NCBI GenBank assembly: GCA_905221615.1
Contig: CAJNDT010004713.1
Coordinates: 338,001-402,000, forward strand
Length of the DNA: 64,000 nt
Reading direction: 5' to 3'
Source: Symbiodinium sp. CCMP2592
Lineage: Eukaryota; Sar; Dinophyceae; Suessiales; Symbiodiniaceae
Numbering within the stretch: position 1 is the stretch's first letter; each line of letters opens with the position of its first letter. Of the stretch, positions 1,884-58,744 are shown in pieces. The translations under genes were made by a program, and so were the position numbers. The notes beneath the pieces were generated by a model. It made no database searches. It saw only the letters and a program-made list of their open reading frames with translations, and was not told the DNA's origin.

Positions 1884-1924
<41 letters not shown>

Positions 1925-3559: not shown

Positions 3560-3703
3560 TGGTCTGGGAAGGATGAGCTCGGAAGATGGCCAGGGCCAGC
3601 CAATCGGGCATTGTCTGTCCATTGTTCCCTCTTTGAACACAGGCAGCCTGTACCCGCAGCAGGAGCCCGAGCTGAGTCCACCAAAGGCGACAGAAGCAAT
3701 GGC

Positions 3704-4420
3704 CAATCCGAGTCCGACAACGGCAGGATCCCCACCAGCTCCCGAACAGATGGCTGCAGAAACTCAGGCAACGGCCCCGCCAGCACTGGCCAATCCGAGC
3801 CCGACGCCAGCTCTTCCCGAGCAGACCAATCCGAGCCCAACGACTGCAGGATCCCCGCCAGCTCTTCCCGAGCAGACCAATCCGAGCCCGACGACTACAG
3901 GATCCCCGCCAGCTCTTCCCAAGCAGACCAATCCGAGCCCGACGACTACAGGATCCCCGCCAGCTCTTCCCAAGCAGACCAATCCGAGCCCGACGACTGC
4001 AGGATCCCCGCCAGCTCTTCCCAAGCAGACCAATCCAACCCTGAGCCCGACGACTGCAGGATCCCCGCCAGCTCTTCCCAAGCACCCCTTGCTGGTGTCA
4101 AAAGCTCATGCACGCCTCAACAGGACACGTCCGCAAGAGCTGCCGAGTCCACCAAAGTCACCGCAAGCACCGCTCTTGACAGAACTTCATGCAGCGGCCC
4201 CGCCAGGGCTGGCCAATCCGAGCCCGACGACTGCAGGATCCCCGCCAGCTCCTCCCAAGCAGAGCTTGCTTCAGACAAAAGCTCGTGCACCTTCCGCCCC
4301 CCCTTCCGCGACACCTCAGCAGGAGCTGCCTGTGCCGAGTCTGCCAAAGCCGCCGCAAGCGCCACCGCTCGTGCCGAGCCCGACGACGGCTGGATCCCCA
4401 CCAGCTCTTCCCAAGCAGAT
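3704..4420. repeat. 51-bp minisatellite (17-residue Pro-rich unit)
   Basis: The cleanest copies run 3829-3879, 3880-3930, 3931-3981 and 3982-4032. Diverged or truncated copies occur at 3704, 3785, 4033, 4214 and 4376. The unit is 51 bases, so one phase reads NPSPTTTGSPPALPKQT and the frame is never lost. Both other + frames and parts of the minus strand are open too, so the 356-residue ORF at 3525-4595 is weak evidence of a gene. It sits just before a NAT10 exon and is most likely intronic. Confidence 0.8.
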
Positions 4421-4488
4421 TTTGCTTTTGACGGATGATGGACATGGCCAGCCGAGTGGCCACTCTCTGGCTCTTGTTCTCGCGAACA

Positions 4489-4606
4489 CAAACAATAAAT
4501 CCCTAAACCCTAAATCCCTAAACCTTAAATCCCCAAACCCTAAATCCCTAAACCCTAAATCCCTAAGCCCTAAATCCCTAGTCCCTAATCCCTAAATCCC
4601 TAAGCC
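4489..4606 (-). repeat. Telomere-like CCCTAAA array, degenerate
   Basis: About 15 units of CCCTAAA/CCCTAAAT with variants. It abuts the acceptor side of the next exon, 4605-4690. Confidence 0.85.
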
Positions 4607-4690
4607 CCCAAGCAGATGCCTGGTTGTCGACGACGAGCTCAACATCCTTCCCTTGTCCCGGCATGCCAAAGCCAGCCTCCCATCGTTCCT
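4605..4690 (+). CDS. NAT10: NAT10 exon: CLVVDDELNILPLSRHAKASLP
   Basis: The frame is fixed by TGC at 4617-4619. It matches the family motif C(L/V)V(I/V)DDELN(I/V)LP(I/L)S that precedes the helicase domain. The start may be 4605 or 4616 and the donor is uncertain (4681-4690). Confidence 0.8.
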
Positions 4691-7600
4691 CGTGTTTCTT
4701 ACCTTTGGTTAGTAGGTTCCTTTAAAGGGATCTATAGGGTACTGCAGGGTATCATAGGGTTTAGGGTTTGGGGTTTACTTACCTTTGGTTAGTAGGGAAT
4801 GGTAGGGTTCCTTTAAAGGGGTCTATAGCTGTTTAGGGTTCCTTTAAAGGGATCTTTACCTTTGGCGGAGGAATATGGGGTACAGTTATAGCTACGATTA
4901 CTACCATTCTTCCATTCCCTACTAACCAAAGGTAAGGTTTTGGGAATTTAGGACTTAGGTTTTAGGGTTCAAGGTTGAGGGGTGTGGTTCGGCTGTGAAA
5001 GGGCTTTGTGAGATTTCCTTAGGCTTTTGTAGGGTTTTTTTGGGTCTGGCTTCAGAGGTATTGCAGAGCTTTTGTGGGTTCGTCGAATCGTGAAAGGGTT
5101 TCGGCTTAGGGTCGAGGTGTACAGAGTCAATGGGTTTACATCTGGGGTGTCAAGGCAACCTCCGTTTATGGATTCAGGGCTCAGCGCCGTAGAACGTCGA
5201 GCTTCGGCATGTAGTTGCGGAGCCGGGCTAAAGTCGGCTAGAGTCCCACGCATTCGCTTCGAGCCAGAACCCCTTCACCACAGCGCACACCCTAGAACCC
5301 CAAAGTCCGAGACCCAACTCCCTTAGACCCCACAAAACAAGAAAACAAGCAACCGAGGACCCAACAAGAGGCCGGTGACCCTCAAATCCTCAGGCCCCGT
5401 TGTTTGGCAAAGCAAAACGCACTAGTATAGAAGCCCGAAGAACTACACGCAGCTATTCTTCATTAACATAAGTATGTATAATATAGCATCCCGTCAACCC
5501 TAAACCCTCTCCGCCTGTAACCCTAAGCCTTATAATCCTAAACCCCACAACTCTAAACCCTATAACCCCAAACCCTATGACCCTGAACCCCCTAAGCCTC
5601 TATGGAGCTCTTAGACAGAGCCTCCCCCCTCATTTTCAAAAGAAACCTGTAGCTTTTTAGGATTCCTTATTATGGTTTCTATATATAGTTCCTTAAAATC
5701 CCTAAACCTTGAACCCTATAACCCTAAACCCAGTTCCTTAAAAATGTAGGTCTTTTCGCTTTCAAAAGGAAGGCCCGGTCTCCTTTCCTAGCCCTGCCGA
5801 GGCCGTGAAGGCGCTGAAGGCCCGGGTTTCAGGGCTTCGGAGCTTTCGGGTTTAGGGGTTACAGTAGAAGCCAGAAAGTTGGAATATCATTATCGTAACC
5901 CCTTCAAGGTAAATTATAGGGGATCCTACCATTAATCCATATTCCAACTTTCTGGAGTTCCCTTTAGCAAGTAGGGACCCAGAGACTCCAATACCCCCTA
6001 ATTAAGGAATATTCCTTACATCATATTCGGGGTACTATAATTTAAGGTATAGGGATTTTGGAGTTTCCGATAATTTGGGGTACCTTATTTTGGGGCCTTT
6101 ATAATAACGATCCTACTAATTAGGGTACTAGATTAGGGTCCCTTGTTTTCGGAAACTCCCATTTTGGATTTACGGCTTCCAAACAGAAGGGTGTAGGGTT
6201 AAGGGGTTTAGGGGTTAGGGATTTTTTTGATTTAGGGCTTCCAAACAGAAGGGTTAGGGTTAAGGGGTTTAGGGGTTAGGGATTTTTTGGATTTAGGGCT
6301 TCCAAACAGAAGGGTTTAGGGTTAAGGGGTTTAGGGGTTAGGGATTTTTTGGATTTAAGGCTTCCAAACAGAAGGGTTTAGGGTTAAGGGGCTTATGGGT
6401 TAGGATTTTTTGGATTTAGGGCTTCCAACCCCTTCTGTTTAGGGTTAACGGGTTTAGGTGTTGGGGATTTTGGATTTAGGGCTTTTGGCGCTTTTCGGTG
6501 GAAGGGCTCTTGTGGATCCCTTAAAGCGGGATTGGAAGGGTTCCTTGAAAAAGGGTGATGAGAAGGGTTCAGGGCAGGGCTTTTGGGGCTTAGGGCTACT
6601 TGGGATTTTCATTGGGTTCCAATCGAGGGTATTATGAGGGTTCCTTCCTAGAGAACCCAATACCCCTTAATTAAGGAATATACCTTATAATTATAGAGGC
6701 CCTAATATTATGATTTAAGGTATATTCCTTAATTAAAGGGTATTGGGATCTCTGGGTTTAAAGGGGTCGATCAGGCTTTGGGATTCCGACGGCAAGAGCT
6801 TACCCAGGGTTCAGGATTAGTTACTTGGGTTTAGGGTTCAGAGTTTAGGGGTAAGCTGAGGTTTAGGTTTCAGGGTTTATGGTTTCTTAGGCTTTTTTCA
6901 GGCTGAGTTTAGGTTTCAAGGGTTTTAGCACCATTTAGGGTTTTATAGGGCGGGTCTGGGCTTTGAGGGATGTTGGCATATTTAAGGCTTTTTGGGGGAG
7001 GATTTGGGCTTTGAGTGTTTGGGATTCAAGGATTTAGGGCTGCTGTTTGGGGTTGAGAGTTTGGGGTCAGGGTTCAGGGTTTTGAGAGTTCTTGCCTAGG
7101 GCTGCGAAAGTTTAGGGCTTAGGGTCCAGGACTTTCTGGGTTAGGAAAGGTATGCGTGGTTTTTGAGGAGGGTGAAAGTGGCAGCAATATGGGGGTTTCC
7201 GAAAATAGGGCCTTATTACAAGGACCCCGCAAAACCAGGGTGCCCCTAATTTTCGGAAGCCCTAAACCCTTATAGTAGCCCTTTAAAGGAACGAACCCTC
7301 ATAGTAACCCTTTAAAAGGACCCTAAGAGTACCCTCAATTTTCGGAAACCATATCCAGCAAAAGTCTCTGCAGCAGTTCGGTGCGCCAGGGCAGGGGCCA
7401 TACACCCCGCGGTTCGAGGACAGCATCACTGTACTCGCTGACTAAGCCCTAAGCTCCTGAACCTGAGACTAAACCCTAAACTGAGTTCCTAAAGCAGCTT
7501 TTCGCAGGATGAGGACGAAGAGGAGGGCGACAGCGAGAGGCCACCAATTTCGGGGCTGGAGTGGAAGGGCTTCTTTATCATCCGGACCTCCATTATAAAG

Positions 7601-10600
7601 AGACCCTTGAAAACATCCTTATCTTAAACCCCGTTCCTTACCCATATCAGTGAAGGATACCTTGTTGGTGGTAATACCTGATAATTCAAGGCACGCCGGT
7701 AGAAGTCCCCAAAGACTTGTGGACCGACAGGAAGGCAGGTTTGACTGTGTCAGTATGCCTCGCTCGAAGGGAAACGCTATTCCAAGATGCTTCAAGATGC
7801 TTTCAGAGCCAGAAGCCCTCGACACAGAGATTTGCCTCTGAGGTCATTTCTGAACGGTTTGGGGCTGCCGGGTCAGGTTTCGGGCTCGGGCTCGGGGGAA
7901 CTCAAGGGCTTCAGGCTAGCATATTGGAATCTCCATTGAAACTCAAGTCTGCAAGGCTTCCTTCAAGGGCTCTACAAGGGCTCTATCGCTACCATGACCA
8001 ACTTCATCGCTACTGATGTTCCCATACATATGCACATCACATCCAACACTTGGGCTTACTTTGGGGTCTTGACGAAGGCAGGTATTGGTACATGTTCTAC
8101 AGTTTCGAGTGCTGAGGGTAATGCAAGACCCTGTCCATCAACAGGACTTCTCAAGGGCTCAAATCCCTAAAGCCCTCAACCCTAAACCCTACACCCCAAG
8201 CCAACAAACCTAAGCCCACAAATCCTCATGAAAGAGGCCCGTATAGTGCCTTTCGGGGAGCCTGTGGACCGCCAAAAAATGATTTTGGAACTGCGAGGGC
8301 GGCGAGGCATCAAGCAGCGAGAGTGATAAAAGCAAGCGATGCTTCCTTCAAGCCATGTTCAACAGGGTTTAGGGTTTACGGTTCGGGGTGTCGGAAGAAG
8401 CTGTACATTGTAATGTCTGTTTTATTTTTTGCATCGATGTAAAAAAAAAAAACATACATTACACTGTTCAAGTACATAGGTGGCACCGACATGGAACGGC
8501 TCTTTCTTGACACAGAACACTTGGCAGCTGGTCCCGGTGTCAAAGCTTGAGGAACACTGAGCAAGGAGGAGCGCGAGATGCCAGCAGAGTTCCCTGATCT
8601 TTTCTTCGGTTTCCCATGCTAACATGTGGGGAGTTTCCGAAAATAGGGGATCCCAATATAGTACCCTAAATAGTAGGATCCTTATTATAGGGAACCCAAA
8701 ATAAGGTACCCCCATTTTCGGGAACTCCCATGTGTCGAAGCCCAAAATGCAGAGCAGAAGGCGAACCAAGACACGGACAAGGATGGAAGTCTTCGTACAG
8801 GAAAAACCTTCACCCAGCAGGTGATGTCCTCTCTGAATAAGCGAGCCGCACGTGGCGCTGGGCCCGTGGCCTTTCCGAAAGGCGCCGCAGGACGTGGGCA
8901 TCTCGGAAGAGAACCCCCGACAAGGTCCACACGAGGGAGTCTTCCTTCCAGCCACGCGTCAGGTTTTCTTCATGCGGTGATCAAATCATGGCTGCGCACA
9001 GCAACCTCCTTGCGCAGGTCCACGCTTCTCCTGACGTTGCATCTGAAGCACTACCGCAAGTTGACAGTATTCAAGCCTGAAAAGCTAGCAATACGATTCG
9101 GGGTTTCAGATTGTAGCTACGCTGTGCTCGTCTCCAAAAGCCGATTCCCCTTGTTCAGATCCCCACACTAGAGGAAGTCTTTAGGGAACTTCACTATTGA
9201 AGCCTTCAGTCCCTTGAGTTCTCTGAGATCCAAATACCCCTTAGTTAACAAATATACCATAAACCATAATATTACGGCCCCTAGTTGTTTATTTAGGGCA
9301 TATTCCTTAATTCAGGAATATACCTTAAAGCCTACGGCCCCTATAGTTTAAAGTATATTCCTTAATTAAGGGGTATTGGGATCTCTGAGTCCCTTGCGTT
9401 CCGGCCCGGGGCTCCTGCAGGCCGAAGACTGCCAACGAGAAAGAGCTGGAGGAGCTGAAGGCAACGACGGCCCCCTGGCGGAAATCACATCATCCTAACG
9501 ATGAAAAGTCATAAGAACACTAGGTTGGATTTTGGAACATTTTTTTACTTTCCTTATTTGGGTTTATAAGGGACCCTATATATAAATATTTTTCAGGGTG
9601 TTTAAAGGCCAACCCAGAACAATAGCCAACAATACCAAGGGGCCCATTGATCATAGATTAATAGTCATGATGAGAACAGCAGCAATGTTACTCGGGGTCC
9701 AAATGATGTAACCTGGACTTAGTGAGGCAGTGTATGATGCTTTCCAGTCCAGTTGCTTCAGCCCTTTGTTCACGGTCTGAGCCTTAAGGTTTCTACGGTT
9801 TACTTTGCTGGGGGTCTTTGGGCTTTAGGCTTCCAAGGTTTAGGGTTTCTGGATGTCTGGTCCGAGACCGAATCTAGAGAGGCCAAGACACCGGAGTTTA
9901 GTCAGGGTCAGGATCTCTTAGCAAGTTAAGGTAATTTAGGGGCCTAACTAATTACAAATACTATTTTGGGGGTTCCTTAGTATTCGCATAGTATAGTTGT
10001 CCCCCCAACCCCTATTCTAATTATTAAGGCCCTTATAGTATGTTTCTTTCTTTGCTTTGTTTATGTCTGTACACAAGAGACATTGATACTGGGTGATCTT
10101 TAACTTTAGGGTAAAAGGCTTGGGGCTTGGGGTTTATTCACGTTTGCACGACGTTGGTTTCTAGTCCCTGTCCCAAAGAACCCTCGACAAAACGAACCTT
10201 TAAATATTCCTAAGAAACCATTACTATACTCTGGTAAAGGAACCCTGTAGAAGTTTCTTTTGTAGTTCCTTTTTACCAAACCCTAAGGAACCCTAAGAAA
10301 CCCTTACAGTTTCCTTTTATCCTTCCTTTAACGTTCCTAAGAAACTCCGCATCTCCTAAACTGCTTAGAGGCCGAAGCGGTTCCTTTGGGACCGATTGTG
10401 GCCGCGTCGCGGACGCTCGACCAGGTGCGAAGCGTGAGGGCGGGTTTAGGGCTTTAGGGTACTAAGGTTTTAGGGTTCAGGGCTTTAAGATTTAGGAGTT
10501 TAGGGGTTTTTAAGGTTTTAAGGTTTAGGGTTGAGGGTTGGGATTGGGGTTCCAAGGGAGTGGTTTGTGGTTTTAGGACTCAGGGCCTTAGTAGGGTTCA

Positions 10601-52600: not shown

Positions 52601-55600
52601 TTTATTTCGAAGCTCACAGAAAGAGGTTTGCAAAAAACAGTCCCGATGGTTGCGACTGGTTGAAGGTCTGGAAGCTGAGATATGTAAAACCCTGATCAGT
52701 CAATCCCGTTCACACGGACTGCAACAAGTATCTTACCATAAAGACCCTGAAGCCCGAAATCTTACACCCCTTAGTGCGACACCCGAGTGCTCCATATACA
52801 ACGACCGCCTACATCTGCATTCAATTCTGGCGTAATGTGTCAGATTTAGTCCTGTCAGGGTTGGGTTTCACGTAGATGTGGGCTGCGCCTTGGAGCCGAA
52901 TGACGACGTTTGCAGGATGAGTGTTGATCTCGTCAAGGCAACACCAACTTCGCTTTCTCGTGAAAGACCAAAAGGAGCCATGAGCAGCTGAGAAATTCAC
53001 AATAGTACTGTTTTGATGAACCTTCTATAAATATGACGGGCCCGAAAACCCCAGTCTACTTGATTGTTAAGGCCCCTATAAAAATAACCTGGCGGCTCAA
53101 CAAGCTGGTAGAAAGAACCCTGGAGCATTTAAACCCAAAACCCTAGACACGAAAGCCGACTTAAGGGTTGTCTTGGATAGCCAAAGTCTGATTTTTGGCT
53201 ACCTTCGCTCGTGTTGTCGGATGCCAACCAGGAAGAAGGTTATCCAGGTAAAGGCGGGGCAACCCAATTACACTACACCGCGAACCAGCCCTCAACGTTT
53301 GAATGTAAGCTCGAAGCATTTAACCCTTATCTGCACTCTATACAAACCCTGTGCCCCAAGCCCCAAAAGCTTTGAGCCGAAGGTGGTGGCCGGCGGCAGC
53401 TTTGTGAAAGATTCCCTGAAGCGTGGCGCCCAGTTCCGTGTTTCCGACGACTCGCACACGAAATGATGCGAAATCTGGCGCTCTCCTAGAGTAAACTTAT
53501 ATTGTTATGGGTAGTGTTTCAGACAACGAACCCCCAACCGTCGGCGCTCTGGCGAGTTTCCCAATCTAGTTGCCATGAAGCTTGTGGCGATTCACTGGGC
53601 TGAAGGATTGAGGGTTTAGGTCAGGGGTCAGATGCTCAGGCTCGAGCACAACCTCTGGTTCAGGGGTCTAGGGCCAATCTTGGACCCCTGGAATGAAAAA
53701 TGCTCGTATCGTGTGCAGCAACCCGGGTCCTAGGTACCGCAGGTCATTTCGGCCTCCGCACTACGTATCTCCTCCTAAGCCCCCCAAAGCCGGAATCTCC
53801 CAGAATCTGATGAAAAAACAAATAAATTTCCTATAAAAATTCATCAAGACATTTTATCCAGAGGAGAAGCCCAGAAGAGAAACAAGGTTCTGAAAACAAC
53901 GAAAGCCCTGAAAAGCCATACGAAGTTTATGTGGGCTTCCGGCCTTTCCGCAGAGGTCGGATCAGGAGATCGCAGGACAGAAGGCCACGGGTTTGGGGTC
54001 TTTGCTATAGGGGCTTAGAGAATTACCAATACCATTATCGGGCTCCTGATTTTCATTGTAGTATGATATACCTGCATACTCTAATCATTAAGGCTTCTGG
54101 TTTAGGGTCTAGGATCGAGCTTAGGGTGGAGAGTTTGTACGATTTTGAGTCCTAAAGGGCATGGTGTTTGTGGTTTCAAGTTTGAGGCTTCCGCAGTTCA
54201 CAATCCGGTTAGAGTTCAGGTGTGACGTTTGTGGGTATAGGTTTGTTCAGGAGGGCATGAAAGGCACTACCAGTCGTTCTGCAATCTGCCTTTTTGAGCT
54301 AGGGCTTTTGGTTTGGTGCCACATACCCTACGTAACAAATGACCTGCGAACTAAGCTCCTTGATCATTCAAGGAATATAGAAGCCTGGTGTTTACCAATG
54401 CTTTTCCTTATAAAGTACCCCAGACTCCGCCATTGCTTCAAGGATTGATTCTATATTTGTATATCATGTTGTGTTCGTTTGAAGTTCATCCCGACGGCCC
54501 TGAGTTTGAAGCGGCTGAACAAGACTCAGACGTTGGTTGGGATTCAGTTCCTGTGTGACCGCTTTTCGCCGATGTATTTTTGAATGTTGCTGTCATTTGG
54601 GGGTTGCGCTGCTATCTAGGATGCATTCAGTTTCGCCCAGTCAAACTCATGGGCGCCATTTCGACATCAGTCCTATTCTGTCTCCATTTTGATTTCATGC
54701 GGAGTGGGGGACGCTTGTGGAGACTTATTGTTGATCCCCTGTACCTTCAATTGGAAAGCATTTCTTGGCACTGCCCGCCCCGGGTATCCTGCACTCTGCA
54801 GTAACGGGTCGAAGTTCTCTTCAGACCTTCTACAGGGGAATTGGAAAAGTGCCACAAAGCCTCATGCCTAAATGCGCGCCTCAAAACATGACTCCAACCA
54901 GATTGAAAACCAGAGACTCGAAATTGAGGTCAACAAGAAGCTTCAAGAGAAAAGAAAGGACCTGTCGCGCCCTCAGTGTTAATTCAAGAGGTCTGCATAG
55001 TCAGAAATATTATCGATTCTTGCCCCTACATAATTAAACCGCCATGTAGCCCCCAAAATCCTGTTTCAAACATTACGGCCCCCACGTTTTGACAAGCACT
55101 TCTCCTGGGAAGTGGACATGTCTCAGCTGTTTTGCTTCGGCCACTATGTAGGACTGTAGGAGTTTACAGTTCAGGCTTTATGTGTATGTATATATATACA
55201 TGTACATATGTATGTATGTATATATATATACATATGAGACCATCCGACAGTCGTAAGTTTGGATAAACTAGGTTGTGTTACTGCGCAGACAAGCCGGACA
55301 ACCAAAACGGCAATGTTCAAGCAAGCTCTTGATTGCCCTCTTTCTGTAGATCCTGCTTTCAAGCCAACAACCACAAGGACGCTGCTCAAGTAAGCTCTTG
55401 ACTTCGTTCTTTCTATGTTGCCCGCCGGGGCAAACACGTGATCTTGAAGAACGATTTCGGCCTTCCGAAAGGCAGGAACCTCCCTCTGCAGGTCAAAGCA
55501 GGAAAGCTGTTAGATACAGAGCCTGCTTGTATGGTCTACGACGAGTGTTCTTTTCGCTGCACAAGTCTCGCATACCCCAACGCTTTCAACCTGCAACCCA

Positions 55601-57295
55601 ATGCGTGGATCTAAAGCCCCGAAACTCGAAAATGCTAAGCCTTGTTTAGGGACTGAGAGCTCAACCTGAACAGCTCCCTTATTCGGGGTCATGTCGCGCA
55701 AACAGTTCAGAGCCAAAGGGGGCGAACTGTTACCGCACATCCCGAGGCTGAATGAAGGATTTTACATTAATGAGGGTTTGTCCTGTATAAGCGGTTTACG
55801 TTCACCGGCCTTCGCCAAGGCTGGCGTCCTTGACCAACGAGAGCTTTGCCGTGGCTCCGAGCACGGTGGCTTGCTTTCAGCTGGAGCTGAGGTTTTGGTC
55901 AAAGCATTGTCGGGGTTCCTAAACACCCCAACTAGGACCTAGAGTAGGCCCTTATTCTCTCTTTAAGGGTTCAGGGCTTTAAACCGAAAAGGGCACCCTT
56001 TTTATTCCTAGGTTACTCTTGGGTCTAGCCAAATTCCAACAACCTTAGACGGTAAACCTTGACCGAAAGGATTCGGAAAAGTGCTTTGCATCTCGATGGC
56101 TCAGAATCTTCCTCAAACACCTGCCCAGGCGCCCAAGGTGTAAAACTGACGAAGGAATACAGGTCGATAGTTAGCCTTTTCTGTGAACACTACAGGAGCA
56201 TGTAAGCTTCCCCTAAACCTTAAGGCCTCTGGTATGAATCACCCCTATGAGACCCTTCCACAACACATAAAGACAAGTCTTCGAAACCTGCTTCGTGCGG
56301 GCCGGGGCCGGGCCGGGTCACAGTGTGATCGAATGGTGTCTACCTGCAACAGAAAAGCCCTACCTTTGTAGGGTTGTTCATTATGGTTTCTATATACAGT
56401 TGCTCAAAACGGTAGGTCTTTTCGGCTACAGGTATACTTTAGACCGGTTTCACAGGGTCTGCACGGAGCTTATGGAAGGGCGCCGGTGGGGTGTAGTAAG
56501 ATTTGCCTCCGAGGAAGATTTTGCCGAAGCGCTTGGTGGCAGCACACCAGCTTCAGGTGGGGCCTAGAGAGGAACCTTTTTCTTAAACCGCTATAGGACT
56601 GGATGGAGCGCTGCTGGTGTGCAGATGCCTGCAATACCGTAGGGACCCTAAATTATGGAACGCATCGTTTATCCCCTAAGGTGTATGATGCAGGCTCTTG
56701 TCCATCAGCAACACATTTAGGGTTTTGAATTCGGTTCACTCTCGTTGAGAGAGAAAGCCCCTGAAGCATCAAGTGTTCAAAACTCTCGAAGTAAGGCCTC
56801 AAAGACTCTACTCAGAGATCCCTAGGCGCTTCACCCCAAGAGGACCTGTAAAGGAGGAGCCTATGCCCGCTGGAAGACGGATGTGTAAGTCTCCTAGAAT
56901 ATGGTTCAAGGTTAGACATGAAGATGTTTCTTGCTTGTTCGAGGCTGCATTCTACTACCAGGACAAGTCAAACGGCTTGAGGCTTAAGCCTAAACCCTAA
57001 ACCTTAAAACCTTGAGCTCCGAAGATGTCGCACTTTGCAGCTGTAAACCTCGATGCCAGAAAGCCAGAAGCCCTTCCCCCAGGCCTGACTTCAAGATGTG
57101 GGTTTCGAACAGAGCCGCAACCCCTCCCTTCGATTCCTGATTCCCTCCTTCCTCTTTGTCGGACCGGGAAGCGCTGCAGGCATCGTGTCCGTGAAGAAGA
57201 AAAGGCAAGCAGAGGAAGCTGCCAATGCTGGCGGGCGGAAGCCAGGCTCGGTTTTACCGGTAGCCTTTGAAGCTGATGGCCCACCGCAAGTTTAG
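4605..57295 (+). CDS. NAT10: RNA cytidine acetyltransferase (NAT10/Kre33 family), micro-exon gene
   Basis: The family makes N4-acetylcytidine in 18S rRNA and in tRNA-Ser/Leu, uses ATP and acetyl-CoA, and acts in the nucleolus during small-subunit maturation. About 41 exons listed below follow the family order: CLVVDDELN; Walker A GRGKSAALG split over two exons; YGYSNIFVT; Walker B LLVVDEAAAIP; ASTVNGYEG; IRYAPGDPVE; VNRDALFSYH; HYKNSPNDL; a GNAT core ARIVRIATHP with an acetyl-CoA loop QRKGYA; GEHSCILL; then the C-terminal RNA-binding part ending IVSVKKKR. Exons are 19-116 bases, introns about 0.2-3.6 kb. Donors are mostly GC, then GT and GA; acceptors are AG|G. Wherever both sides of a junction could be set, the phase fits, which argues for a working gene rather than a pseudogene. 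The N-terminal ~200 residues (TmcA N-terminal domain) and some internal stretches were not found. Boundaries are hand-set. Confidence 0.85.
4778..4936. mobile_element. Hairpin element family A, copy 1 (composite)
   Basis: Ends are CTTACCTTTGGTTAGTAGGG and its reverse complement. A third arm lies just outside at 4698-4716 and part of another at 4855, so copies are nested or duplicated. It carries two copies of the dispersed TTCCTTTAAAGGG motif. Confidence 0.8.
5635..5776. mobile_element. Hairpin element family H, copy 1 (diverged)
   Basis: Contains CTGTAGC...GGTTTCTATATATAG...GTAGGTCTTTTCG, as in the copies at 38.9 and 56.4 kb, but its left arm is degraded. Confidence 0.55.
5871..5955. repeat. 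Perfect inverted repeat (17-bp arms)
   Basis: CCAGAAAGTTGGAATAT at the left end is matched by its reverse complement at the right end. The loop contains GGGATCC as in other hairpin elements. Only copy seen. Confidence 0.85.
5978..6053. mobile_element. Half copy of hairpin family C
   Basis: Left arm CCAGAGACTCCAATACCCCC and TTAAGGAATATTCC are present. The right arm is missing and a family B element follows directly. Confidence 0.55.
6061..6148. mobile_element. Hairpin element family B, copy 1
   Basis: Arms are GAGTTTCCGATAATTTGGGG and TTTTCGGAAACTC. The interior has CCTACTAATTAGGGTAC, shared with other B copies. Confidence 0.75.
6176..6440 (+). repeat. ~62-bp tandem repeat containing TTTAGGG
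   Basis: CTTCCAAACAGAAGGG recurs at 6176, 6238, 6299 and 6361, and a diverged copy at 6422. Between them are TTTAGGGTTAAGGGG-type sequences. Confidence 0.85.
6647..6756. mobile_element. Hairpin element family C, copy 1
   Basis: Arms of about 40 bases: AGAGAACCCAATACCCCTTA, then ATTAAGGAATATACC, mirrored at the right end by GGTATATTCCTTAATT and GGGTATTGGGATCTCTGGG. Confidence 0.85.
7193..7262. mobile_element. Hairpin element family B, copy 2 (short)
   Basis: GGGTTTCCGAAAATAGGG is mirrored by CCCTAATTTTCGGAAGCCC. A lone right arm follows at 7333-7350. Confidence 0.7.
7508..7539 (+). CDS. NAT10: NAT10 exon: acidic DEDEEEGDSE linker
   Basis: Acceptor CGCAG|G and GC donor (GCCACC). It ends in phase 2 and the next exon supplies exactly one base. 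An acidic stretch before the ELxELK helix is known in some family members. Confidence 0.6.
8623..8732. mobile_element. Hairpin element family B, copy 3
   Basis: CATGTGGGGAGTTTCCGAAA at the left, TTTTCGGGAACTCCCATGTG at the right. The interior is CCTAAATAGTAGGATCCTTA. Confidence 0.85.
9208..9400. mobile_element. Hairpin element family C, copy 2, with candidate target-site duplication
   Basis: The element (9221-9387) has CTCTGAGATCC and AATACCCCTTAGTTAA at the left, and TTAATTAAGGGGTATTGGG with ATCTCTGAG at the right. A third arm lies in the middle (9297-9330). It is flanked by AGTCCCTTGAGTT (9208-9220) and AGTCCCTTGCGTT (9388-9400), 12 of 13 bases identical. Confidence 0.75.
9421..9469 (+). 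CDS. NAT10: NAT10 exon: TANEKELEELKAT
   Basis: Acceptor TGCAG|G, GC donor (GCCCCC). The first base completes AGG with the previous exon. Matches the family helix ExxELKxxL between the DDELN motif and the helicase domain. Confidence 0.8.
9938..10033. mobile_element. Hairpin element family G, copy 1
   Basis: GGGGCCTAACTAATTAC...CTATTTTGGGGGTTCC is mirrored by CCCCCAACCCCTATTCTAA and TTATTAAGGCCC. Confidence 0.8.
10371..10424 (+). CDS. NAT10: NAT10 exon: PLGPIVAASRTLDQ
   Basis: Acceptor TTAGAG|G, GT donor (GTGCGA). Matches family (P)VGxLVxxCKTLDQ with the same residue count from the previous exon. Confidence 0.85.
10672..10762. repeat. (AAT)n/(ATT)n simple repeat forming an inverted repeat
   Basis: AAT units run into ATT units and back to AAT units, so the segment can fold on itself. 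Confidence 0.85.
10795..10843. mobile_element. Half copy of hairpin family G
   Basis: Right half only: ACCCCAAACCCCAAC then TTAGTGAGGCCCCTATGG. Confidence 0.45.
11254..11309 (+). CDS. NAT10: NAT10 exon: AKAVMSFVDAISEKSLNR
   Basis: Acceptor TTCAG|G, GT donor (GTGCCT). Matches family AKAVLxFIxAISEKTLRS and joins residue-for-residue with the exons either side. Confidence 0.9.
11588..11620 (+). CDS. NAT10: NAT10 exon: MALTAARGRGK (first half of Walker A)
   Basis: Acceptor CCGAG|G, GC donor (GCACTT). 33 bases. The intron cuts the lysine codon of the nucleotide-binding GRGKS motif after AA; the next exon supplies the G. Confidence 0.9.
12358..12475 (-). repeat. Telomere-like CCCTAAA/CCCCTAAA array
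   Basis: About 16 units, ending 21 bases before the acceptor of the next exon. It may serve as the pyrimidine-rich tract. Confidence 0.9.
12497..12563 (+). CDS. NAT10: NAT10 exon: SAALGLAISAAVAYGYSNIF
   Basis: Acceptor CCGAG|G, GC donor (GCACCG). Near-identical to family SAALGL(A/S)IAGAVAFGYSNIFVT, the second half of Walker A plus the following strand. Flanked on both sides by telomere-like arrays in opposite orientation. Confidence 0.95.
12588..12665 (+). repeat. Telomere-like TTTAGGG array after a poly-G tract
   Basis: A run of 12 or more G (12575-12587) is followed by GGTTTAGGGTTTAGGG and variants, starting about 25 bases after the splice donor. Confidence 0.9.
12690..13175 (+). repeat. 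Decayed tandem copies of the exon end plus donor
   Basis: The segment CATCTTCGTGACGGCAC...AAGGG at 12549-12575 (exon end and start of the intron) recurs at 12693-12720, 12893-12921, 12969-13001, 13046-13078 and weakly at 13146-13170. Each copy is followed by G-rich DNA, and several are followed by TTCCTTTAAAGGGATCTATAGG. Confidence 0.8.
12735..12853. mobile_element. Hairpin element family F, copy 1
   Basis: CTAGGAATCCCAGTAGTACC is mirrored imperfectly by GGTTACTGGGTATCCTAG. It sits inside the array of exon-end copies. Confidence 0.6.
13588..13613 (-). repeat. Short CCCTAAA run
   Basis: Three perfect CCCTAAA units. Confidence 0.8.
14588..14740. mobile_element. Hairpin element family G, copy 2 (composite)
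   Basis: GGGGCCTTCATAATTACC...CTATTCTGGGG with a poly-G tract at the left; GCCCCCAAACCCCTAC and an extra half arm CAATTATTTAGGCC at the right. Confidence 0.6.
14770..14841 (+). CDS. NAT10: NAT10 exon: APSPENLSTVFEFILKGFD
   Basis: Acceptor CAGAG|G; the exon ends ATG AAG and the intron starts GAGACC (GA donor). Near-identical to family SPSPENLxTLFEFVxKGFDAL. Confidence 0.95.
14868..16035 (+). repeat. 49-bp minisatellite of TTTGGGATTTAGGG type
   Basis: GAGAGTTG recurs at exactly 49-base steps (15106, 15155, 15204, 15253) and the pattern fills about 1.17 kb, roughly 24 units. 49 is not a multiple of three, so each unit changes frame; the ORFs here repeat every three units and are artefacts. Wholly inside one NAT10 intron. 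Confidence 0.95.
16480..16530 (+). CDS. NAT10: NAT10 exon: EHQEYELVQAENPELNK
   Basis: Acceptor GCCAG|G, GC donor (GCCAGA). Matches family EHxDYExIQSxNPEFNKA. Confidence 0.9.
17043..17166. mobile_element. Hairpin element family C, copy 3 (diverged)
   Basis: GAGAGCCC...CCCTTAATCAAGAAATATGG at the left, TTCCTTAAGTAAGGGGTATT and GGGCTCTCTGGG at the right. It ends nine bases before the next NAT10 exon. Confidence 0.75.
17175..17201 (+). CDS. NAT10: NAT10 exon: ALVRVNIFK (27 bases)
   Basis: Acceptor CTTGAG|G, GA donor (GACGGA). Matches family AV(I/V)RVNVFR. Only nine codons. Confidence 0.85.
17202..18938. other. Intron
   Basis: Mostly unique-looking DNA with scattered short ORFs on both strands; no family hairpin or known coding motif recognised. 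Confidence 0.4.
18939..18995 (+). CDS. NAT10: NAT10 exon: DHRQTVQYISPSDWQHLAQ
   Basis: Acceptor CGCAG|G, GC donor (GCAGGA). Matches family EHRQT(I/V)QYIxPxDxxxL. Confidence 0.92.
19145..19268. mobile_element. Hairpin element family D, copy 1
   Basis: CCCAGGGGACTTAGTAAGTA and GGTTATAAGTAGGG at the left; CCCTACTTATAACC and TACTTACTAAGTCCCCC at the right; arms over 40 bases. Confidence 0.9.
20074..20111 (+). CDS. NAT10: NAT10 exon: AELLVVDEAAAIP (Walker B)
   Basis: Acceptor CAAAG|G, GC donor (GCGACC). Carries the DEAA ATPase motif. Ends in phase 2, completed by the next exon. Confidence 0.95.
20932..20998. repeat. TATAG-rich simple repeat
   Basis: Repeated ATAGTATAGTATAG units. Confidence 0.6.
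21084..21110 (+). CDS. NAT10: NAT10 exon: LPIVKKLLG (27 bases)
   Basis: Acceptor CCCAG|G, GT donor (GTCCCG). Matches family LPLVK(S/K)LLG after the Walker B motif. Confidence 0.9.
21759..21802 (+). CDS. NAT10: NAT10 exon: PYLVLLASTVNGYEG
   Basis: Acceptor CCCAG|G; the exon ends GAA G and the intron starts GAGCCA (GA donor). Matches family PYLVFxASTINGYEGTGRSLSLKL, which continues in the next exon. Confidence 0.95.
21853..21937. repeat. Perfect inverted repeat (16-bp arms)
   Basis: GGACAAAATCCTGCAT and its exact complement at 21922-21937. It lies about 50 bases after a splice donor. Single copy seen. Confidence 0.85.
22457..22497 (+). CDS. NAT10: NAT10 exon: TGRALSLKLIEDL
   Basis: Acceptor AGCAG|GC supplies two bases to complete a glycine codon. 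Matches family TGRSLSLKLI. The donor is uncertain. Confidence 0.92.
23973..24237 (+). pseudogene. Coding-like island with one in-frame stop
   Basis: GC-rich, reading RISKARVAAILEEGRQAQSG..., then a TGA near 24078, then LFAEDVRLVCGDRGDDPGHR... to a TAA at about 24237. Composition is like real dinoflagellate coding DNA and unlike the intron around it. Family not recognised. It may be a decayed gene or retro-element fragment in the NAT10 intron, or an unrelated exon. Confidence 0.3.
24571..24683. mobile_element. Hairpin element family B, copy 4
   Basis: CATATGAGAGTTTCCGAAAA at the left and GGGAAAATCCCATATG at the right. The interior CCTACTATTTAGGGTACC is shared with other B copies. Confidence 0.85.
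25747..25782 (+). CDS. NAT10: NAT10 exon: EPIRYAPGDPVE
   Basis: Acceptor GCAAG|G, GC donor (GCACCG). Near-identical to family ExIRYAPGDxVE. Confidence 0.95.
26730..26768 (+). CDS. NAT10: NAT10 exon: SWLGRLLCLDAAQ
   Basis: Acceptor GGCAG|T, GC donor (GCCCTC). Matches family KWLNxLLCLD directly after PGDPVE. A family C hairpin starts 14 bases past the exon end. Confidence 0.88.
26782..26892. mobile_element. Hairpin element family C, copy 4
   Basis: CCCAGAGAGCCCAAGGGGCC and TTAATTAAGGAATATGGC at the left; GCCATATTCCTTAATTAAGG, GGTATTGGG and CTCTCTGGG at the right. The longest and cleanest arms of the family. Confidence 0.9.
27724..27820. repeat. Perfect inverted repeat (20-bp arms)
   Basis: CTACTATTTGCTTAAGAACC is mirrored at 27801-27820. 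AT-rich loop. Single copy seen. Confidence 0.85.
28063..28157. mobile_element. Hairpin element family G, copy 3
   Basis: TGGCCTAAATAATCACC...GGGGGTTCC at the left and GATTGTTAAGGCCCC at the right. Confidence 0.65.
28515..28625. mobile_element. Hairpin element family C, diverged subfamily
   Basis: CACCCAGACCTTCCAGTACC at the left and GGATATTGGAAGGTCTGTG at the right, with the family's CCTTAAAT...ATTTAAGG inner palindrome. Confidence 0.7.
28905..28950 (+). CDS. NAT10: NAT10 exon: CSLFWVNRDALFSYH
   Basis: Acceptor CCCAG|G, GT donor (GTGCTG). Matches family CELYxVNRDTLFxYH. Confidence 0.92.
29205..29325 (-). repeat. Telomere-like CCCCTAAATCCTTAAA array
   Basis: Five or six units of about 22 bases built from CCCTAAA-like parts. 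Confidence 0.75.
29407..29609. mobile_element. Hairpin element family E, copy 1 (nested arm)
   Basis: CTTGGAGGTGAAGGGGTAGC at the left, CTACTTATAACTACCCATGA and ACCTCCAAG at the right, with a second left arm at 29500-29525. The inner part carries CCCTTTAAAGGGATCCCATA. Confidence 0.75.
30365..30413 (+). CDS. NAT10: NAT10 exon: EASEKFLFKMMSLFVS
   Basis: Acceptor GTCAG|G, GC donor (GCAGGC). Matches family KASExFLQxxMxLYVASHYKNSPND, which continues in the next exon. Confidence 0.9.
30462..30730 (+). repeat. Triplet-rich low-complexity segment (CAG/CAA/CGA)
   Basis: AGCAGCAGCAGCGG and a CAACAACAACAA run at 30566-30595, with related triplets to 30730. All frames give poly-Q/N/T/H or poly-L/V type ORFs. 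It lies between two NAT10 exons and is called intronic. Confidence 0.7.
30804..30878 (+). CDS. NAT10: NAT10 exon: HYKNSPNDLLLMADAPAHHL
   Basis: Acceptor CCGAG|GC, GA donor (GAGCTC). Near-identical to family SHYKNSPNDLQxLSDAPAHHLF. 75 bases, the longest internal exon found. Confidence 0.95.
31172..31189 (+). repeat. (CAC)n microsatellite
   Basis: Six CAC units. Confidence 0.9.
31834..31932. repeat. Inverted repeat with 14-bp arms
   Basis: AGGCTCCATGTACC is mirrored by GGGTACATGGAGCCT; the inner part is also palindromic (CCTTAAAG...CTTTAAGG). Single copy seen. Confidence 0.8.
31995..32022 (+). CDS. NAT10: NAT10 exon: ELPEVLVAIQ
   Basis: Acceptor CGCAG|AA completes a codon from the previous exon; GA donor (GATTCT). 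Matches family LPEVLxVIQVCLEG. Confidence 0.8.
32588..32660. mobile_element. Hairpin element family I, copy 1 (short)
   Basis: CTGGGTCCTAGTATAGG at the left; ATTCCTTACTAAGCACCAGA at the right. Confidence 0.5.
32749..32870. repeat. Inverted repeat with ~30-bp arms
   Basis: GGGGAAAAGGAGGGACCC...AAGGGGGACCCC at the left; GGGGTCCTTATTAAGGG and TCCCTCCTTTTCCTC at the right. Single copy seen. Confidence 0.8.
33026..33129. mobile_element. Hairpin element family E, copy 2
   Basis: GGTTCTGGGGTAGTTGTAAG at the left; GCTTAGAACTACCCATGAAC at the right. The CCCTGTAAAGGGATCTATAGG upstream resembles the interior of copy 1. Confidence 0.7.
33874..33968. mobile_element. Hairpin element family A, copy 2
   Basis: CTTACCTTTGGTTTGTAGGG at the left; CATTCTTCCATTCCCTAATA and ACCCAAGATAAG at the right. 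Confidence 0.85.
35621..35664 (+). CDS. NAT10: NAT10 exon: SLKRGLRPSGDLIP
   Basis: Acceptor GCCAG|G, GC donor (GCGTCT). Matches family SLxRGxxxSGDLIPW. Confidence 0.92.
35937..35968 (+). CDS. NAT10: NAT10 exon: WTLTQHFLHD
   Basis: Acceptor ACTGAG|G, GT donor (GTCCAT). Matches family W(T/)(V/L)SxQFQD; the first base completes the preceding proline codon. Confidence 0.85.
36455..36520 (+). CDS. NAT10: NAT10 exon: FGQLSGARIVRIATHPALQR
   Basis: Acceptor TACAG|GC, GC donor (GCCACC). Near-identical to family FxxLSGxRVVRIAVHPDYQ, the core strand of the GNAT acetyltransferase fold. Confidence 0.95.
36805..36836 (+). CDS. NAT10: NAT10 exon: YASEAVKQMI (acetyl-CoA loop)
   Basis: Acceptor TGCAG|GC, GT donor (GTCCTG). 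Joined to the previous exon it gives QRKGYA, fitting the GNAT Q/R-x-x-G-x-G/A pattern followed by a helix. Confidence 0.85.
38065..38172. mobile_element. Hairpin element family C, copy 5
   Basis: CCCGGAGAGCCCAATACCCC and TTAATTAAGCAATATAGC at the left; GCCATATTCCTTAATTAAGG and GGGCTCTCTGGG at the right. Confidence 0.9.
38556..38646. mobile_element. Hairpin element family G, copy 4
   Basis: GAGCCTCAATAATTACTAAT at the left; TTCTAATCAAGTTAATGAGG at the right. Confidence 0.65.
38884..38984. mobile_element. Hairpin element family H, copy 2
   Basis: TACCTGTAGCCGAAAAGACC is mirrored exactly by GGTCTTTTCGGCTACAGGTA; the arms extend to about 27 bases. Confidence 0.9.
39340..39375 (+). CDS. NAT10: NAT10 exon: ELAPREVPPLLE
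   Basis: Acceptor AGCAG|G, GC donor (GCGCCG). Matches family (T)PRxxLPPLLxxL. Confidence 0.75.
40050..40184. mobile_element. Hairpin element family D, copy 2
   Basis: CAGAGGCCCAGGGGACTGGG at the left; TACTAAGTCCCTGGGCCTCC at the right. It ends 52 bases before a NAT10 exon. Confidence 0.85.
40237..40289 (+). CDS. NAT10: NAT10 exon (likely): VPPPYDLDYARALL
   Basis: Acceptor ACGAG|G, GC donor (GCGTGA). It corresponds to the ERPxxLDYLGVSxGLTxxLL region before FWxRxGF. Identity is modest but both phases fit. Confidence 0.55.
41068..41103 (+). CDS. NAT10: NAT10 exon: FWRRSGFRPVYL
   Basis: Acceptor CCAAG|G, GC donor (GCGCCA). Near-identical to family FWKRxGFxPVYLRQT. Confidence 0.92.
41301..41388. 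mobile_element. Hairpin element family B, copy 5
   Basis: GGAGTTTCCGAAAATTAAGG at the left; CCCTATTTTCGGCAGCTCC at the right. Confidence 0.8.
42217..42248 (+). CDS. NAT10: NAT10 exon: EHSCILLRTM
   Basis: Acceptor GCCAG|GA, GC donor (GCTCCA). Near-identical to family (T)GEHSCIMLKTL, the last part of the GNAT domain. A tiny exon for RQTxNDLT just before it was not found. Confidence 0.9.
42770..43165 (+). repeat. AT-rich island of TGTTATAC-type units
   Basis: Dozens of TATGTTAT, TATATCAT and GTTATACTA units, T-rich on the + strand, ending about 10 bases before the next exon. Confidence 0.8.
43175..43230 (+). CDS. NAT10: NAT10 exon: VIDHFAADFRLRFLRLL
   Basis: Acceptor TTCAG|G, GT donor (GTGGCG). 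Matches family W(L)xxFxxDFRRRFLxLL at the start of the C-terminal RNA-binding part. Confidence 0.92.
43328..43458. mobile_element. Hairpin element family D, copy 3 (diverged)
   Basis: ACTTAGAGGCTCGGAGGATT and TAGTAAGTAG at the left; GGGCCTCTAAGT at the right. Confidence 0.75.
44145..44192 (+). CDS. NAT10: NAT10 exon: PFSKQPTRLALSVVD
   Basis: Acceptor TTCAG|G, GC donor (GCCGCC). Matches family F(S/R)xxxxxLALxIL in spacing with the previous exon. Confidence 0.88.
44225..45075 (-). repeat. AT-rich island of ACATAATATA-type units
   Basis: A/C-rich on the + strand (CATAGTA, CATAATATA, ATACAATAC), i.e. the complement of the units at 42.8-43.2 kb. Includes TATATA/TGTGTG tracts near 44390-44475. 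Confidence 0.75.
45540..45630. mobile_element. Hairpin element family A, copy 3
   Basis: CTTACCTTTGGTTAGTAGGG and AATGGAAGAATGG at the left; CCATGCCTTACTAACCCAAG at the right. Confidence 0.88.
45914..45941. repeat. Short perfect hairpin (12-bp stem, 4-base loop)
   Basis: GACATTTTTCAA, CAGC, TTGAAAAATGTC. Intronic; no T-run follows. Confidence 0.8.
46424..46530. mobile_element. Hairpin element family B, copy 6
   Basis: CATGGGAGTTTCCGAAAATG at the left; CCCTAATTTTCGGAAACTC at the right; interior AAATAGTAGGATCCTTATTA as in copy 3. Confidence 0.88.
46630..46741. mobile_element. Hairpin element family I, copy 2
   Basis: CCTGGTGCTTAGTAGGGAAT at the left; ATTCCCCACTAAGAACTATA and TCCAG at the right. 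It ends 29 bases before a NAT10 exon. Confidence 0.75.
46771..46830 (+). CDS. NAT10: NAT10 exon: PLTAASLLQFLSRDDIH
   Basis: Acceptor GAGAG|C, GC donor (GCCGAG). It corresponds to family LSxEELxxxLxPYDLKRLE; phases fit on both sides. Confidence 0.75.
47385..47438 (+). CDS. NAT10: NAT10 exon: LEQYGKNLVEYALVLDI
   Basis: Acceptor AGCAG|G, GC donor (GCCGCT). Near-identical to family RLExYxRN(L/M)VDYHLIxDxIP. Confidence 0.93.
47439..48706. other. Intron
   Basis: Short ORFs on the + strand, no recognisable motif and no family hairpin. Confidence 0.4.
48707..48749 (+). CDS. NAT10: NAT10 exon: PTLATLFLSRRMPE
   Basis: Acceptor GCCAG|G; likely GT donor (GTCCCC). Matches family (V/I)PxLARLFFxxxxP. Confidence 0.85.
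49675..49693 (+). CDS. NAT10: NAT10 exon (tentative): LALERN (19 bases)
   Basis: Acceptor GCCAG|G, GC donor (GCATGT). Could be the end of family LLLGLGLQHK. The QAA(I/L)L strand before it was not found. Confidence 0.35.
50378..50431 (+). CDS. NAT10: NAT10 exon: VAQDFNAPASQLLALFNK
   Basis: Acceptor GACAG|G, GC donor (GCGGGT). Matches family LEKELxLPSxQLxALFNK. Confidence 0.92.
51390..51437. mobile_element. Half copy of hairpin family I
   Basis: Right half only: CATAATCCGTTCCCCCATTC and CCTACTAAGAACCAGA. A lone family B arm lies at 51495-51515. Confidence 0.5.
51608..51640 (+). CDS. NAT10: NAT10 exon (tentative): VEEEGEAEGLP
   Basis: Acceptor TCGAG|G. The acidic helix could match family (E)VQExxIEEQM after the LFNK motif. 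Donor not resolved and phase unproven. Confidence 0.35.
51840..51934. mobile_element. Hairpin element family A, copy 4
   Basis: CTTACCTTTGGTTGGTAGGG at the left; CATTCTTCCATTCCCTACTA and ACCAAAGGTAAG at the right. Confidence 0.9.
52995..53080. mobile_element. Degenerate hairpin family G
   Basis: Right arm TTGATTGTTAAGGCCCC is clear; the left arm is poor. Confidence 0.4.
53383..53427 (+). CDS. NAT10: NAT10 exon (likely): VVAGGSFVKDSLKRG
   Basis: Acceptor CGAAG|G, GC donor (GCCCAG). It corresponds to the family stretch (T)LxxDLxEA before the last helix; phase agrees with the next exon. Confidence 0.55.
54009..54097. mobile_element. Hairpin element family G, copy 5
   Basis: AGGGGCTTAGAGAATTACC at the left; TCTAATCATTAAGGCTTCT at the right. 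Confidence 0.6.
54929..54966 (+). CDS. NAT10: NAT10 exon: VNKKLQEKRKDL
   Basis: Acceptor TTGAG|G, GC donor (GCGCCC). Ends CTG TC; joined to the next exon it gives KDLSFASEEDF, matching the family (L)DLSxYxxxxDDEEW region. Confidence 0.75.
55175..55235. repeat. TATATA/TGTATG simple repeat
   Basis: TGTATGTATATATATACATG, its near mirror, and TGTATGTATGTA units. Confidence 0.7.
55929..56030. mobile_element. Hairpin element family F, copy 2 (weak)
   Basis: ACTAGGACCTAGAGTAGGCC at the left; CCTAGGTTACTCTTGGG and TCTAGCC at the right. Resembles the 12.7-12.85 kb element. Confidence 0.45.
56339..56438. mobile_element. Hairpin element family H, copy 3
   Basis: TCTACCTGCAACAGAAAAGC at the left; GGTCTTTTCGGCTACAGGTA at the right; interior TATGGTTTCTATATACAG as in copy 1. 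Confidence 0.8.
56501..56538 (+). CDS. NAT10: NAT10 exon: FASEEDFAEALG
   Basis: Acceptor AGTAAG|A, GC donor (GCAGCA). Matches the family acidic segment before the lysine-rich tail. Confidence 0.75.
57180..57295 (+). CDS. NAT10: NAT10 last exon: IVSVKKKRQAEEAANAGGR...
   Basis: Acceptor TGCAG|GC completes a glycine codon. The segment equals the family tail (I)ISLKSxKKRK. It reads on to TAG 57293-57295; an earlier splice or stop cannot be excluded. Confidence 0.75.
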
Positions 57296-58066: not shown

Positions 58067-58744
58067 ATGTCGAGCTCGCATAGCGAAGCCGACGACAGTT
58101 CCCAATCCTCCGGGGGATATGAGAACGAAGAGACCTCCCAAGGTCCAGCCACTTATGTCGCACAGTCATATGCAACATCTGACCGCATGCTTGCATCATT
58201 AGGCATAACGCCCAAGATCGCGCCTGCCTATGATGGCACCACCTCGTGGTTTGAGTATGAACAGTTGATTGACGACTGGTGCGACATAACAACGCTGGAT
58301 GACACCAAAAGAGGTCCGTCTCTCAAGACGAGGCTCTCCGGATTGGCCGCAGTACAAAAGGAATCACTGAACCGAGAAAGGCTTGCAGCCCCAGATGGAG
58401 TAGATTACTTCAAGAAGAAGATGCGTCCATTTTTCGTGAAAGGAGAACAGTACGTTTTCCTGTGGCGTTTCCTCGGCCTATTCAAGGCATGGAAGGGCAA
58501 CCAAGACTTTGTGACTTGGATTGCCAAGTTTGAGATCGTGCTACAGCGCGTGAAAAACTCATGGATGGATCTCTTACCAGAGATAGCTCTGGAGGATGCC
58601 CATCCAGATTTCATGCAAGCTGTGCAGGCAGACCAAACCTTCTTGCGCATGCAGGATGCACCGAGAGAGACACATATGCCGCACGCTATTTCGAAACATG
58701 GAACAAGGAACGCCTTGACAATCATCGAAGAGCGTTTCCTCTGA
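58067..58744 (+). CDS. Copia-type gag-like ORF
   Basis: Starts ATG 58067 and ends TGA 58742-58744 (225 residues). It opens with an acidic Ser-rich stretch, then APAYDGTTSWFEYEQLIDDW and FFVKGEQYVFLWRF, typical of the gag region of dinoflagellate copia polyproteins (from memory). The conserved frame is left at about 58660-58676; the gag continues in the -1 frame as YAARYFETWNKERL. The last ~23 codons of this ORF are therefore out of frame with the protein family. No classic CCHC knuckle is visible here. Expected role is packaging element RNA into particles. Confidence 0.75.
   Translation: MSSSHSEADDSSQSSGGYENEETSQGPATYVAQSYATSDRMLASLGITPKIAPAYDGTTSWFEYEQLIDDWCDITTLDDTKRGPSLKTRLSGLAAVQKESLNRERLAAPDGVDYFKKKMRPFFVKGEQYVFLWRFLGLFKAWKGNQDFVTWIAKFEIVLQRVKNSWMDLLPEIALEDAHPDFMQAVQADQTFLRMQDAPRETHMPHAISKHGTRNALTIIEERFL
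58645..58678 (+). other. Gag-to-pol frame change (-1)
   Basis: Frame 58067+3n matches the family up to LRMQDAPRE; frame 58660+3n matches from TYAARYF. Both frames are open over 58534-58744. A GAGAGAGA tract sits at 58663-58670. A one-base deletion or a programmed -1 slip would both explain it. Confidence 0.65.

Follow-up and report, generated by a model that had tools for sequence, protein, structure and literature searches.

A probable NAT10/Kre33 ortholog divided into at least 57 micro-exons over about 53 kb in Symbiodinium

Enzymes of the NAT10/Kre33 family produce N4-acetylcytidine (ac4C) on 18S rRNA and tRNA. The question raised by this locus is whether a gene of this family could be present as a long series of micro-exons, as a first-pass annotation had proposed from the letters. 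The window, i.e., the whole stretch of DNA analysed (64,000 nt, 49% GC, zero N), was compared by tblastn with an approximate NAT10 query, which gave many short colinear plus-strand matches amid chance ones. These were linked into one chain by a spliced protein-to-DNA dynamic programme (DP; allowed donors GT, GC or GA, acceptors AG), and the chain gave a draft protein. The draft was then searched against a protein database, and the final model was built with Symbiodinium microadriaticum protein P0001 as the query.

Spliced protein-to-genome alignment, the check suggested with the annotation, yielded one colinear in-frame chain (score 3298) of plus-strand micro-exons at the place originally indicated. 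It comprises 57 exons from 4602/4616 to 57245 (Table 1), so that "about 41" was an undercount. The estimate of about 2 kb of exon in about 53 kb holds for the span (approximately 53,000 bases) and falls short for the exon total, since the coding region in the window, counted from 4616, amounts to 2,504 nt (about 2.5 kb). All 56 joins keep one frame, in agreement with the earlier reading of the junctions, and 839 residues are read from the joined exons with 0 stops in 839 codons.

Table 1. Exons of the gene model and repeats in or beside its introns (positions in the window). All exons come from the spliced alignment with P0001; exons 2-56 are each uniquely placed.
Feature	Position	Strand	Remarks
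Exon 1	4616-4670	+	CLVVDDELNILPLSRHAKA; start set after AGCAG|A; DP start 4602
Exon 2	5802-5819	+	18 nt; missed with P0004 query
Exon 3	7508-7539	+	
Exon 4	9421-9469	+	
Exon 5	10371-10424	+	
Exon 6	11254-11309	+	
Exon 7	11588-11620	+	Walker A, first part
Exon 8	12497-12563	+	Walker A remainder (SAALG)
Exon 9	14770-14841	+	
Exon 10	16480-16530	+	
Exon 11	17175-17201	+	27 nt
Exon 12	18939-18995	+	
Exon 13	20074-20111	+	Walker B-type LLVVDEAAA
Exon 14	21084-21110	+	27 nt
Exon 15	21759-21802	+	
Exon 16	22457-22491	+	GA donor
Exon 17	23625-23667	+	one extra Gly relative to P0001
Exon 18	25126-25166	+	
Exon 19	25747-25782	+	
Exon 20	26730-26768	+	acceptor AG|T
Exon 21	27826-27866	+	
Exon 22	28905-28950	+	
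Exon 23	30365-30413	+	
Exon 24	30804-30873	+	NSPNDLLLMADAPAHHLL
Exon 25	31960-32022	+	
Exon 26	34603-34642	+	
Exon 27	35621-35664	+	
Exon 28	35937-35968	+	
Exon 29	36455-36520	+	GNAT motif HPALQRKGYASEA, first part
Exon 30	36805-36836	+	GNAT motif remainder
Exon 31	37235-37290	+	
Exon 32	37991-38025	+	
Exon 33	38696-38712	+	17 nt, shortest; missed with P0004 query
Exon 34	39340-39375	+	
Exon 35	40237-40275	+	
Exon 36	40690-40727	+	GTSFGLT
Exon 37	41068-41103	+	FWRRSGFRPVYL
Exon 38	41643-41668	+	26 nt
Exon 39	42217-42281	+	
Exon 40	43175-43230	+	
Exon 41	44145-44205	+	
Exon 42	45999-46024	+	26 nt; acceptor AG|A; missed with P0004 query
Exon 43	46756-46830	+	75 nt, longest internal
Exon 44	47385-47438	+	
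Exon 45	48707-48749	+	
Exon 46	49141-49162	+	22 nt
Exon 47	49967-50013	+	
Exon 48	50378-50431	+	
Exon 49	50807-50854	+	
Exon 50	51608-51636	+	29 nt
Exon 51	52385-52412	+	28 nt
Exon 52	53383-53420	+	
Exon 53	53956-53983	+	28 nt
Exon 54	54929-54963	+	
Exon 55	55820-55865	+	
Exon 56	56514-56556	+	
Exon 57	57180-57245	+	GIVSVKKKRQAEEAANAGGRKPG; end set at CAG|GCTCGG; DP ends 57250 or 57220
Foldback repeats, group one	6643-6759, 26778-26895, 38062-38175		introns
Foldback repeats, group two	6048-6165, 46418-46527, 8617-8734		introns
Foldback repeats, group three	33867-33976, 45530-45636, 51831-51942		introns
Foldback repeats, group four	19144-19268, 40048-40184, 43327-43458		introns
Telomere-like (TTTAGGG/CCCTAAA) or related satellites	4496-4603, 5496-5591, 6162-6484, 10442-10539		in or beside introns
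Telomere-like or related satellites, continued	12354-12668, 13230-13344, 14857-16028, 29220-29322		in or beside introns

Very short exons could be matched by chance in 53 kb, and the DP strings 52-74 pieces together even in the 11 control sequences. A chain of chance matches put together by the alignment has, however, next to no probability and was rejected, since the controls attain only about a tenth of the real score (318-360 with P0001 residues 87-916 as the query: reverse complement 339, reversed sequence 318, nine dinucleotide shuffles 338-360) and the placements are unique. When all other AG...G[TCA] placements that fit between the adjacent exons with unchanged length and phase were scored, none of the 55 internal exons had an equal or better alternative (smallest margin 21 half-bits, exon 2). 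Borders of exons 2-56 were identical with or without a preference for AG|G, and unchanged even in a run penalising GC and GA donors. Exon-internal codons match P0001 in 784 of 802 cases.

With a more distant query, P0004 (80.3% identical), identical borders were recovered for 45 of 57 exons; three were missed (Table 1), and other borders were given for exons 1, 3, 17, 18, 31, 32, 34, 41 and 57. These 12 differing exons show that, where conservation is weak, the borders depend on P0001. The P0004 chain adds pieces before exon 1, at 24018-24036, at 52003-52008 and after exon 57. The P0001 chain extends into five pieces upstream of exon 1 and four downstream of exon 57, which were left out of the model because they bear no resemblance to the query and fall beyond the conserved region.

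The assembled protein is identical at 818 of 838 aligned residues (97.6%) to the annotated UPF0202 protein KRE33 (RNA cytidine acetyltransferase) of S. microadriaticum, i.e., P0001, from which it differs by 20 residues and one extra Gly codon. Both proteins contain PF05127 (RecD-like helicase/ATPase, E 1.6e-56 here), PF13718 (GNAT acetyltransferase, E 8.7e-82) and PF13725 (C-terminal tRNA-binding, E 9.3e-50, profile positions 3-232 of 233), and all three matches are well above their Pfam cut-offs. The Walker A motif GRGKSAALG is divided between exons 7 and 8. The GNAT motif, read as QRKGYA across exons 29 and 30, agrees with the rule Q/R-x-x-G-x-G/A. In the PDB, matches were obtained to 6ke6 (E 5.8e-229) and 7mq8 (E 1.3e-218), both named RNA cytidine acetyltransferase, which we take to be yeast Kre33 and human NAT10, respectively. 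The proposed family identity, with intact ATPase and GNAT motifs, is thus supported by Pfam, by the PDB and by the reading of the motifs.

The database search with the draft protein scored 7,993 proteins, 5,720 of them at E <= 0.001. Among the best 120 of these 5,720, S. microadriaticum KRE33 (P0001) ranked first, with 73% identity to the draft, the second by score was a protein assigned to Brassica cretica (P0002; 925 bits, 53% identity in a match covering 68% of the query), and Effrenium voratum (P0003, 71%) came next, with Prorocentrum cordatum (P0005, 61%) fifth. P0004 has 968 aa and comes from a 3,214-base contig; a relative therefore has a copy free of introns, probably a transcript. Judged by sequence, the locus is predicted to be an ordinary NAT10/Kre33 ortholog with an extremely split structure.

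The internal exons (n = 55) measure 17-75 nt, with a mean of 43.3 and a median of 41; 40 of them do not exceed 51 nt and all 55 fall within 75 nt. The range of 19-116 bases given earlier has to be corrected accordingly, and its upper value is most likely, as our guess, exon 57 read through to a TAG at 57293-57295. Introns (n = 56) extend from 272 to 2580 nt (mean 895), in phases 0/1/2 in 28, 9 and 19 cases. The donors are GC in 35, GT in 15 and GA in 6, and 54 of the 56 acceptors read AG|G (exons 2-57: 54 AGG, 1 AGT, 1 AGA), the combination of the dinoflagellate (Symbiodinium) nuclear intron type. Together with the 97.6% identity to the S. microadriaticum protein, these signals indicate a species of Symbiodinium. 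GC content is 59.7% in exons vs 47.8% in introns.

Such a gene would be missed by ORF tools, as had been anticipated: the median length of the stop-to-stop frames around the exons is 56 aa (at least 100 aa in 12 of 57), and both motifs are split by introns. A six-frame scan with nine hand-made patterns gave chance-like matches only. This is weak evidence, because Walker A and GYEGTG are intron-split and several other patterns misfit the letters of the protein. The whole window contained no tRNA and no Rfam family at gathering score. Nested genes were considered and rejected: seven ORFs in or across introns (28 listed) were scanned without a Pfam match at 1e-3. Three of the seven overlap exons 16, 39 and 46. 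Four ORFs at the window ends were scanned as well.

In the numbering of the 7mq8 NAT10 chain, coverage starts near residue 196, and P0001 extends 86 residues further at its N-terminus (roughly the last 45 of which appear conserved on visual inspection) and 64 residues further at its C-terminus. N-terminal exons were not found in 1-4612 by tblastn or by spliced alignment on both strands, where scores resembled those of shuffles. Four N-terminal queries scored 34-53 on the plus and 35-49 on the minus strand, while 12 shuffles of each gave means of 36-52 and maxima of 45-62; for three long queries the plus-strand scores were 50-53 vs shuffle means of 44-52. Positive controls in this search scored 331 and 306. 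The PF08351 (TmcA_N) domain is lacking in database proteins P0001 and P0003 and present in P0004, P0005, P0006, P0009, P0011 and P0012. The acceptor of exon 1 is atypical (AG|A), and the exon begins 12 nt after a (TAAATCCCTAAACCC)n satellite array.

At the other end, the match of exon 57 to P0001 extends to ...GGRKPG, where the DNA continues with CAG|GCTCGG, which fits a GC donor. Relatives end in short Lys/Arg-rich tails, e.g., KKRKP or KKQKW. A search for a Lys-rich last exon after 57245 was made twice, with 2 and 21 candidates, none of them convincing. Alternatively, exon 57 itself could be the last exon: read unspliced, it reaches its stop at the TAG named above, the endpoint chosen in the first-pass annotation. 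Contrary to the earlier description as "whole", the window contains only part of the gene, since the PF08351 domain was not found in the upstream 4.6 kb and a last exon was not identified; this domain and probably the last exon lie outside the window or escaped the search.

Three further open frames are located on the plus strand near the ends. An uninterrupted 304-aa ORF of RCC1 repeats (16-930; PF13540, E 2.9e-30) is either a separate upstream gene or lies inside a long first intron. A 356-aa ORF (3525-4595) is composed of tandem repeats with a 51-nt (17-aa) unit and a high content of Pro, Thr and Ser; it has no Pfam match at 1e-3 and terminates shortly before exon 1, with which it is in frame. 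A stop-free frame of at least 1,822 aa (58534-63999) starts about 1.3 kb past exon 57 and reaches the window end. As a whole it has no Pfam match at 1e-3; one stretch is integrase-like (PF00665, E 0.0037, 17.9 bits, under the cut-off of 32.6), and a DSG motif is protease-like. By its sequence, this frame resembles an LTR retroelement polyprotein.

These surroundings could be explained by a truncated or disrupted copy, the 5' part of which was replaced by the RCC1 ORF and satellites and the 3' part by a retroelement, the intact gene being elsewhere. The lack of any N-terminal exon in 1-4612, the satellite array and non-AGG acceptor at exon 1 and the retroelement-like frame would fit it. We consider it improbable, however, given 839 codons free of stops and frameshifts, 97.6% identity, and splice borders that are kept, as the acceptors of exons 2-57 indicate; that P0001 and P0003 lack PF08351 too suggests distant or hard-to-find first exons and not damage at this locus. 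A misjoin of the assembly at satellites or repeats, affecting the 5' 4.6 kb and/or the 3' 6.7 kb, is slightly less probable still: a satellite array does border exon 1, but the central 53 kb are colinear and in frame, as is not expected of misassembly, an argument that concerns the centre and not the ends.

The origin of so many introns could be sought in introner activity. Direct repeats at the borders of the 56 introns have a mean match of 2.89 vs 2.74 +/- 0.12 for re-paired borders, a value reached by 67 of 500 controls. Terminal inverted repeats of at least 8 nt near intron ends are found in 3 of 56 introns vs a mean of 1.85 in 20 re-pairings. Since direct and inverted repeats are both near expectation, the gene gives no indication of recently inserted introner elements, either by target-site duplications or by terminal inverted repeats.

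The introns carry several families of approximately 100-bp foldback (MITE-like) repeats (examples in Table 1), the copies of which are roughly 70-90% alike and in many cases match in both orientations. Folding was more than 2 SD better than that of shuffles for 20 of 23 listed copies (exceptions: 9219, 17074 and 5640). The window contains 15 strong hairpins, in 12 of the 56 introns, whereas none occurred in any of 10 local mononucleotide shuffles. In the first foldback family, as observed post hoc, 4 of 6 copies are situated within 40 nt of an intron end. TTTAGGG occurs 86 times and CCCTAAA 51 times in the window, with 52 and 32 of these, respectively, in 4,001-16,000.

Traces of the exon structure could be recognized in other gene models. 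In P0011 (a eukprot gene model), a 78-residue gap matches exons 15-20 (218-296 vs junctions at 216.7 and 296.0), a 26-residue insert is located at the junction of exons 6 and 7 (93 vs 92.7), and a further gap, with filler residues, corresponds roughly to exons 10-12 (157-190 vs 150 and 195). Similarity of P0008 starts near the start of exon 12 (175 vs 176). P0009 (three gaps) and P0012 (six gaps), both from contigs of about 3 kb, have one gap each near one exon (42 and 3, respectively), and the remaining seven fit no exon at both ends; being in variable linkers, these gaps argue neither way. The pattern in P0011, a single model, suggests micro-exons dropped in annotation and shared intron positions. 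Domain counts in dinoflagellates may thus miss real domains, because motifs are cut by introns and P0011 lacks blocks matching runs of exons.

Taken together, the window most probably (about 0.93) contains a nuclear NAT10/Kre33 ortholog gene of a Symbiodinium close to S. microadriaticum, in 57 in-frame micro-exons with G[C/T/A]...AG|G borders. Transcription of the locus would give a pre-mRNA exceeding 53 kb, from which the spliceosome would remove at least 56 introns, and the predicted protein would use ATP and acetyl-CoA to form N4-acetylcytidine on 18S rRNA and tRNA, as in its family. An intron of at least 4.6 kb would separate the exons found from those for the N-terminal domain, which would lie beyond the 5' edge of the window, and a short last exon would follow downstream. 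The division into micro-exons may be old and not the product of fresh intron-making transposons, and the introns may have been enlarged since by satellite and hairpin repeats.

This NAT10 locus illustrates cleanly, and in a form that can be checked, the extent to which a conserved gene may be fragmented; it could also serve to study how 57 exons of about 43 nt are located by a spliceosome that has weak border signals to rely on. That Symbiodinium has a class of conserved genes built wholly of micro-exons (mean about 43 nt, more than 20 introns per kb of CDS) and needing special splicing seems doubtful. If it were true, a splicing mode would be required in which G[C/T/A] and AG|G signals alone suffice to recognise exons below the size needed for ordinary exon definition, and the long intron foldback repeats could perhaps help splicing by shortening or shielding introns.

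Compared with human NAT10 and yeast Kre33 (7mq8 and 6ke6), the protein gives a single match over residues 5-828 and 5-831 of 840 and has the same helicase/ATPase, GNAT and tRNA-binding domains; PF08351 was not found in the window. The GNAT motif is QRKGYAS here, QGMGYGS in the 7mq8 and 9j3c chains and ASMGYGS in 6ke6.

No published account of the structure of this gene was found in limited searches of the literature on dinoflagellate micro-exons and Symbiodinium intron density. In the available excerpt of PMC10666404, S. natans donors are GC (58%), GT (23.6%) and GA (18.4%), with AGG acceptors in 97.1%, proportions near those here, except that GA donors are rarer in this gene (6 of 56, 10.7%). 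Mean values in the accessible part of PMC5177918 for S. microadriaticum are 21.8 exons per gene, 109.5 nt per exon, a coding region of 2,389 nt and introns of 505 nt, and for S. natans the excerpt of PMC10666404 gives 106 nt per exon and 15.7 exons per gene, whereas the present gene has at least 57 exons of 43 nt. The extreme split first noted here is confirmed by intron density: about 22 introns per kb of CDS (56 in about 2.5 kb, window alone) vs about 8.7 by our own division of the S. microadriaticum means (PMC5177918, as accessible). Introner activity and one intron of 26,372 bp appear in the accessible text of a dinoflagellate review (PMC11453091). The intron-rich kind of gene is already known, and the degree of fragmentation is well off the published mean. 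A comparable architecture is that of the Schistosoma micro-exon genes (MEGs), in which, according to the available part of PMC10526429, short exons of 3-81 bp are placed between long introns; as here, the gene consists mostly of micro-exons, a likeness of architecture only, with no homology claimed. The MEGs, as described there, encode highly variable secreted proteins, whereas the Symbiodinium locus encodes a conserved enzyme.
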